A DNA stretch of 64,000 bases from Syntrophomonas sp. (GTDB taxonomy: Bacteria > Bacillota > Syntrophomonadia > Syntrophomonadales > Syntrophomonadaceae): the NCBI GenBank assembly GCA_016841425.1, contig JAENZE010000010.1, positions 1 to 64,000 on the forward strand. Reading direction: 5' to 3'. Below, piece by piece: positions 27,614 to 33,053 of this stretch. The number at the start of each line of letters is the position of its first letter. Within the stretch, counting starts at the first letter, position 1. A program made the translations under genes and the position numbers. A model generated the notes under the pieces. That model worked only from the letters and a program-made list of their open reading frames with translations. It ran no database searches and had not been told where the DNA came from.

Positions 27614-27655
27614 GCAGACCGATAACAGAGGCCCCGGTTTATCCGGGGCTCATTT
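27614..27655 (+). terminator. rplY terminator, first copy (T1)
   Basis: GCCCCGG and CCGGGGC around TTTAT at 27631-27649, followed by TCATTTT. The box CAGACCGATAACAG immediately precedes it. The hairpin sequence is repeated exactly at 27801-27821. A second small hairpin, CATTTTGTC/GACAAAATG, follows at 27651-27677. Confidence 0.8.
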
Positions 27656-27681
27656 TGTCAACAAGGTCGACAAAATGCCAG

Positions 27682-27797
27682 ACCGATGACAAAGGCGAAG
27701 ATTAAGGCATGAGAAAAGACCGCGATTGAGGCGTACCTGAGTACGTTGATTGAGGGGGCTTTTTGAAATAACGAAGATATTCGGCTTTGTCATCGGT
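27682..27797 (+). ncRNA. Structured repeat element, copy A (unknown RNA)
   Basis: A 116-nt element closed by ACCGATGACAAAG (27682-27694) pairing perfectly with CTTTGTCATCGGT (27785-27797); the stem continues four more pairs after one G-G mismatch. Inside: AAGGCATGA, then CCGC-GATTGAG, a CGTAC/GTACG hairpin with loop CTGA, and a second GATTGAG. The same motifs occur in the same order in copy B (32903-33019), with compensatory changes in the stem. It is placed + because it precedes the U-tract of T2. No promoter was found for it, so it may be made from rplY read-through. Function unknown. Confidence 0.7.
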
Positions 27798-27800
27798 TTG

Positions 27801-27827
27801 AGGCCCCGGTTTATCCGGGGCTTTTTT
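27801..27827 (+). terminator. rplY terminator, second copy (T2)
   Basis: The same hairpin as T1 (identical over AGGCCCCGGTTTATCCGGGG and the next base C), now followed by a run of six T. This copy has the better U-tract and should be the efficient terminator. Confidence 0.88.
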
Positions 27828-32852: not shown

Positions 32853-32880
32853 GAAGCGGTCTTATAGCTAAGACCGCTTC
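32853..32880 (+). terminator. spoVT terminator, first copy (T1)
   Basis: GAAGCGGTCTTA and TAAGACCGCTTC form a long stem around a short loop at 32853-32880; no U-run follows (AACCATAAAT). The sequence recurs almost exactly at 33022-33048. Confidence 0.75.
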
Positions 32881-32902
32881 AACCATAAATAGCAAGGTGA
32901 CA

Positions 32903-33019
32903 GGCCGATGACAAGAGTGAAAACCAAGGCATGAAATCATTCCGCGATGGAGGCGTACTTAAGAACGTCGATTGAGCGGGCTGATCTAACAACGCAGGGA
33001 TTCGCTTTTATCATCGGCC
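32903..33019 (+). ncRNA. Structured repeat element, copy B (unknown RNA)
   Basis: A second copy of the element at 27682. GGCCGATGACAA... (from 32903) pairs with ...TTTTATCATCGGCC (to 33019) over about 19 positions with one C-A mismatch and two G-U pairs. AAGGCATGA at 32926-32934, CCGC-GATGGAG, the GCGT/ACGT hairpin and GATTGAG-CGGG follow in the same order as in copy A. Relative to copy A one stem pair has changed from A-U to G-C and another from G-C to A-U, i.e. compensatory. It is flanked by two copies of the spoVT terminator. Confidence 0.7.
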
Positions 33020-33021
33020 TT

Positions 33022-33053
33022 AAGCGGTCTTAATAGCTAAGATCGCTGTTTTT
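33022..33053 (+). terminator. spoVT terminator, second copy (T2)
   Basis: AAGCGGTCTTAATAGCTAAG then ATCGCTG and TTTTTG. It is nearly identical to T1 with one inserted and two altered bases, and here the U-run is present. Confidence 0.8.

Follow-up and report, generated by a model that had tools for sequence, protein, structure and literature searches.

A gene-free mobile DNA element of about 150 bp has spread through Syntrophomonas-type bacteria by inserting at intrinsic-terminator hairpins at gene ends, and its insertion duplicates the local hairpin so that one copy lies on each side of the element. Such a way of inserting was not found described in our literature searches, which did not reach most subscription papers or ISfinder. 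In the analysed window, a 64,000-nucleotide stretch of a Syntrophomonas sp. contig, the element occurs at two loci, spoVT and rplY, the gene names resting on our reading of the translations. At spoVT, the duplicated block is 26 bp, AAGCGGTCTTATAGCTAAGACCGCTT at 32854-32879 (+) and AAGCGGTCTTAATAGCTAAGATCGCT at 33022-33047 (+), the two copies differing by one indel and one T/C change, and the 20-mers noted in the first-pass annotation start exactly at 32854 and 33022. The left copy is no longer followed by a T tract, while the right copy is followed by the original T tract GTTTTTG. Between them lies a somewhat decayed 142-bp element copy (32880-33021, +), identified by searching with the element DNA and by a covariance model hit of 109.9 bits. 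At rplY, a perfect 22-bp repeat, AGGCCCCGGTTTATCCGGGGCT at 27629-27650 (+) and 27801-27822 (+), the latter followed by the T tract, flanks a full-length copy of 150 bp (27651-27800, +; 154.5 bits). The element core pattern occurs twice in the window and in none of 100 shuffles.

To test whether this arrangement holds genome-wide, as predicted in the first-pass annotation, which had proposed a mechanism that targets terminators and duplicates them locus by locus, the own genome was searched with the two copies, yielding 12 and 24 matches. Reading of these matches showed the local hairpin on both sides at nearly all full copies, each with its own sequence, e.g. AGAAGCCGCCCCATAAAGGCGGCTTCT, AAGCGAATGATTAACATTCGCTT and AAAGGGGCATCTCTTATGAGTTGCCCCTTT at loci L006, L008 and L009, respectively. 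The genome carries ~20 copies, and the covariance model detected the element in 26 of 63 genomes of the order, with up to 37 copies each. A scan of 84,980 species genomes with the core pattern found it in Syntrophomonadaceae MAGs, plus a MAG named Pelotomaculum sp. UBA5255 and two named only Firmicutes or Bacillota, while none was found in viral contigs. The proposed terminator targeting is thus supported; what the annotation did not have is that the duplication is the whole hairpin with variable length, that the element is a conserved single-strand fold, and that many species carry it.

With the element ends fixed by the model, 66 of 103 copies had a locus-specific flanking direct repeat scoring 28 or more, against 0.13% of mispaired left and right flanks. 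Copies without a clear repeat seem to have older or rearranged flanks, and over all copies 86 of 102 have a stem of 6 bp or more at the right end, against 20% of shuffles. For 64 distinct target-site duplications the median length is 24 bp, the bulk lying at 17-33 bp and the longest clean palindrome, at locus L123, being 43-45 bp; a few shorter or longer values are alignment artefacts. The ends of the duplication pair with each other as the base of a hairpin with no offset in 45 and within 1 nt in 55 of the 64, so the duplicated stretch is the hairpin itself and its length follows the hairpin. In some loci the palindrome continues a few A.T pairs beyond the duplicated part, so the joint is near, not always at, the very base. 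The idea that the left hairpin is made by self-templated repair and so more perfect than the right one was not significantly supported (19 against 9 loci, p = 0.09).

Comparison with relatives revealed empty sites at both loci. At spoVT, six relatives (genomes G002, G004, G009, G014, G035 and G005) have one terminator, whereas G003 has an intact orthologous element between two hairpins and G001 a decayed one. At rplY, G004 and G035 have a single terminator, and G002 has an element of another subtype beside a single terminator, the left hairpin being gone, possibly an independent insertion into the same target (loci L169/L198, rplY-pth). The duplication therefore came with the insertion. This second subtype has different ends (TCAGAGCGAGCAAAAAAGG...CCTTTTTTGACGCTCTG) but the same core and loops, was observed at loci L024, L029, L031 and L106-L110, and is frequent in genomes G008 and G027. 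Tandem arrays of hairpin-element-hairpin-element-hairpin were also observed (L071 300-813 with three units, L072, L073, L121 and L095), with 98-100% identical elements where compared, probably generated by unequal crossing-over between the duplicated hairpins. At L116, L124, L125 and L128 solo left ends occur, in which the small hairpin of the element remains after one terminator while the main hairpin and the second terminator are missing, and at L118, L120, L122, L121, L030 and L026 a second short repeat (AGCCC..CAGGACCACAATTTGGGCTCGCTGCGCTCGAAATAATAAAGAAG) is nested repeatedly in the same parts of the element.

In 11 of 12 own-genome copies examined, the element starts 14-126 bp past the end of a neighbouring long reading frame, and none lies inside one. 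Both orientations relative to the terminator occur, with 27 same, 13 opposite and 26 undecided by a simple T/A count. Because the left hairpin is followed by element sequence while the right one keeps the original T tract, we infer that the host gene still terminates and that, in the sense orientation, the element is co-transcribed as a structured RNA tail.

The element carries no gene, and its length is 149-152 bp in all of the 33 copies aligned. The single-strand fold has a z of -6.95, and the consensus fold consists of a small left hairpin, at 27654-27674 (+) in the rplY copy, which covaries between copies, and a long main hairpin, at 27679-27800 (+), with conserved internal loops (GATTGAG/TGATTGA; GATYAAGGCATGA/AATAACG) that are not Watson-Crick paired, GATTGAG opposite TGATTGA being among the most conserved parts. 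Of 46 pairs, 32 show two-sided changes, against 10.3 in shuffles and 7-17 in slid controls. Pairs with a Watson-Crick consensus show 99 G.U against 26 A.C departures (p = 3e-11, which is only indicative as related sequences are not independent). A palindrome kept only as duplex DNA would not distinguish the two, so one strand, the element's + strand, is selected as RNA or single-stranded DNA. No Rfam family matched the window at gathering score, and the best sub-threshold hit covers only the end of spoVT and the left terminator hairpin.

We next searched for the enzyme that moves the element. No pair of inverted ends 0.7-4 kb apart was found among the listed end matches of genomes G000 and G001, and following 20 isolated left ends revealed no transposase behind them. 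All-against-all blastp of neighbouring proteins returned as recurrent only orthologous host genes, the IS1182 and Y1 hits fetched as such, and readings of the element itself. IS1182-family copies in these genomes do insert in hairpins, and one local group has ends, CAGRCTGTGTGAAAA, that share CAGRCYG with the element, but they leave ~4 bp duplications or replace the hairpin. Such copies sit in a repeated GGGGACGGTTCTTTTG... hairpin at loci L324-L327, L131, L143 and L140, and in L324 the flanks are inverted arms with the hairpin interior missing, as described for IS1272. Nor does IS1182 track the element: G027, G073 and G074 carry 25, 12 and 8 element copies with no IS1182 hit, while G025, G028 and G005 have many IS1182 hits and no element, although several of these are fragmented assemblies.

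Collectively, we favour, with a probability of roughly 0.68, a non-autonomous, MITE-like element of Syntrophomonadaceae that inserts at intrinsic-terminator hairpins through a trans-acting recombinase, the insertion pattern being established while the enzyme and chemistry are inferred. In this model, the recombinase binds the element ends (TCAG...CTGA) and joins its two 3′ ends to the 5′ base of the hairpin on each strand, two points that in an extruded cruciform would face each other across the four-way junction, and repair of the hairpin-long 5′ overhangs then duplicates the whole hairpin. A relative of the hairpin-targeting IS1182 transposases is the most plausible candidate. More tentatively, and somewhat less likely than not, DNA secondary structure rather than enzyme geometry sets the length of the target duplication, the whole hairpin being duplicated whatever its size and the host's terminator surviving downstream of the insert. 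IS1272/TnSha1 and ISCbo5 of the IS1182 family likewise insert without primary-sequence preference into hairpins, mostly terminators at gene ends, in other Firmicutes (PMC4923244, PMC3098183), but they encode a transposase, and IS1272 makes blunt deletions of the hairpin with no target duplication. Bacterial MITEs such as BOX, RUP and Chunjie (PMC10969869) are, like the present element, short, gene-free and intergenic, with inverted ends, target duplication and, by inference for the present element, a stable stem-loop transcript, and the inverted repeats here are TCAG/CTGA and CAGRCCGATGAC/GTCATCGGYCTG, although the outermost left end is only partly like the right end. Ordinary MITEs, however, appear to have short duplications of nearly fixed length, while here the length follows the hairpin.

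Other explanations are less likely. A retro-element, whose structured RNA is copied by a reverse transcriptase at a nicked terminator with the second cut on the other side of the hairpin, would be consistent with the strand-specific fold, the conserved internal loops, the variable long duplications and the likely co-transcription with the host gene in the sense orientation, and group IIC introns probably favour terminator stems as well. This remains unlikely, since the 150-bp element matches neither a group II intron nor any other Rfam family, both its ends are precise and inverted, which suits a DNA transposase, and no A-tail or 5′ truncation series was seen, although reverse transcriptases were not searched for. 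Single-stranded DNA transposition by a Y1/RAYT-type enzyme, as for REP sequences, which are also short palindromic repeats outside genes, would conform to the palindromic element and its G.U excess, and Y1_Tnp genes occur in 42 of 63 genomes. It is nevertheless doubtful, as Y1 enzymes are expected to make no target duplication, G009, G037, G074 and G067 carry 11, 11, 8 and 6 element copies with no Y1_Tnp hit, and many genomes with Y1 have no element.

It is also improbable that no special insertion chemistry is involved, namely that a terminator was first tandemly duplicated and then entered by the element, or that element-plus-hairpin units were spread by recombination. The tandem arrays are as expected of unequal crossing-over, but each locus duplicates its own hairpin, the empty sites seen show one hairpin and never two, and about 60 loci would each need a prior duplication with exactly hairpin-wide limits. 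A host regulatory RNA or attenuator placed in 3′ ends would fit the covarying fold and the position in 3′ regions of genes, but is very unlikely given both orientations, the unrelated host genes, the patchy presence of 0 to 37 copies per genome, and the insertion polymorphism between species at the same locus.

Target duplications are normally a fixed fingerprint of the enzyme, while here the duplication tracks a hairpin from 17 to about 45 bp, which is hard to explain unless the enzyme acts on the extruded structure. This makes terminator cruciforms in living cells testable by genetics, and shows a way to insert next to genes without losing transcription termination. The element is also an undescribed conserved single-strand fold present in many syntrophic bacteria.
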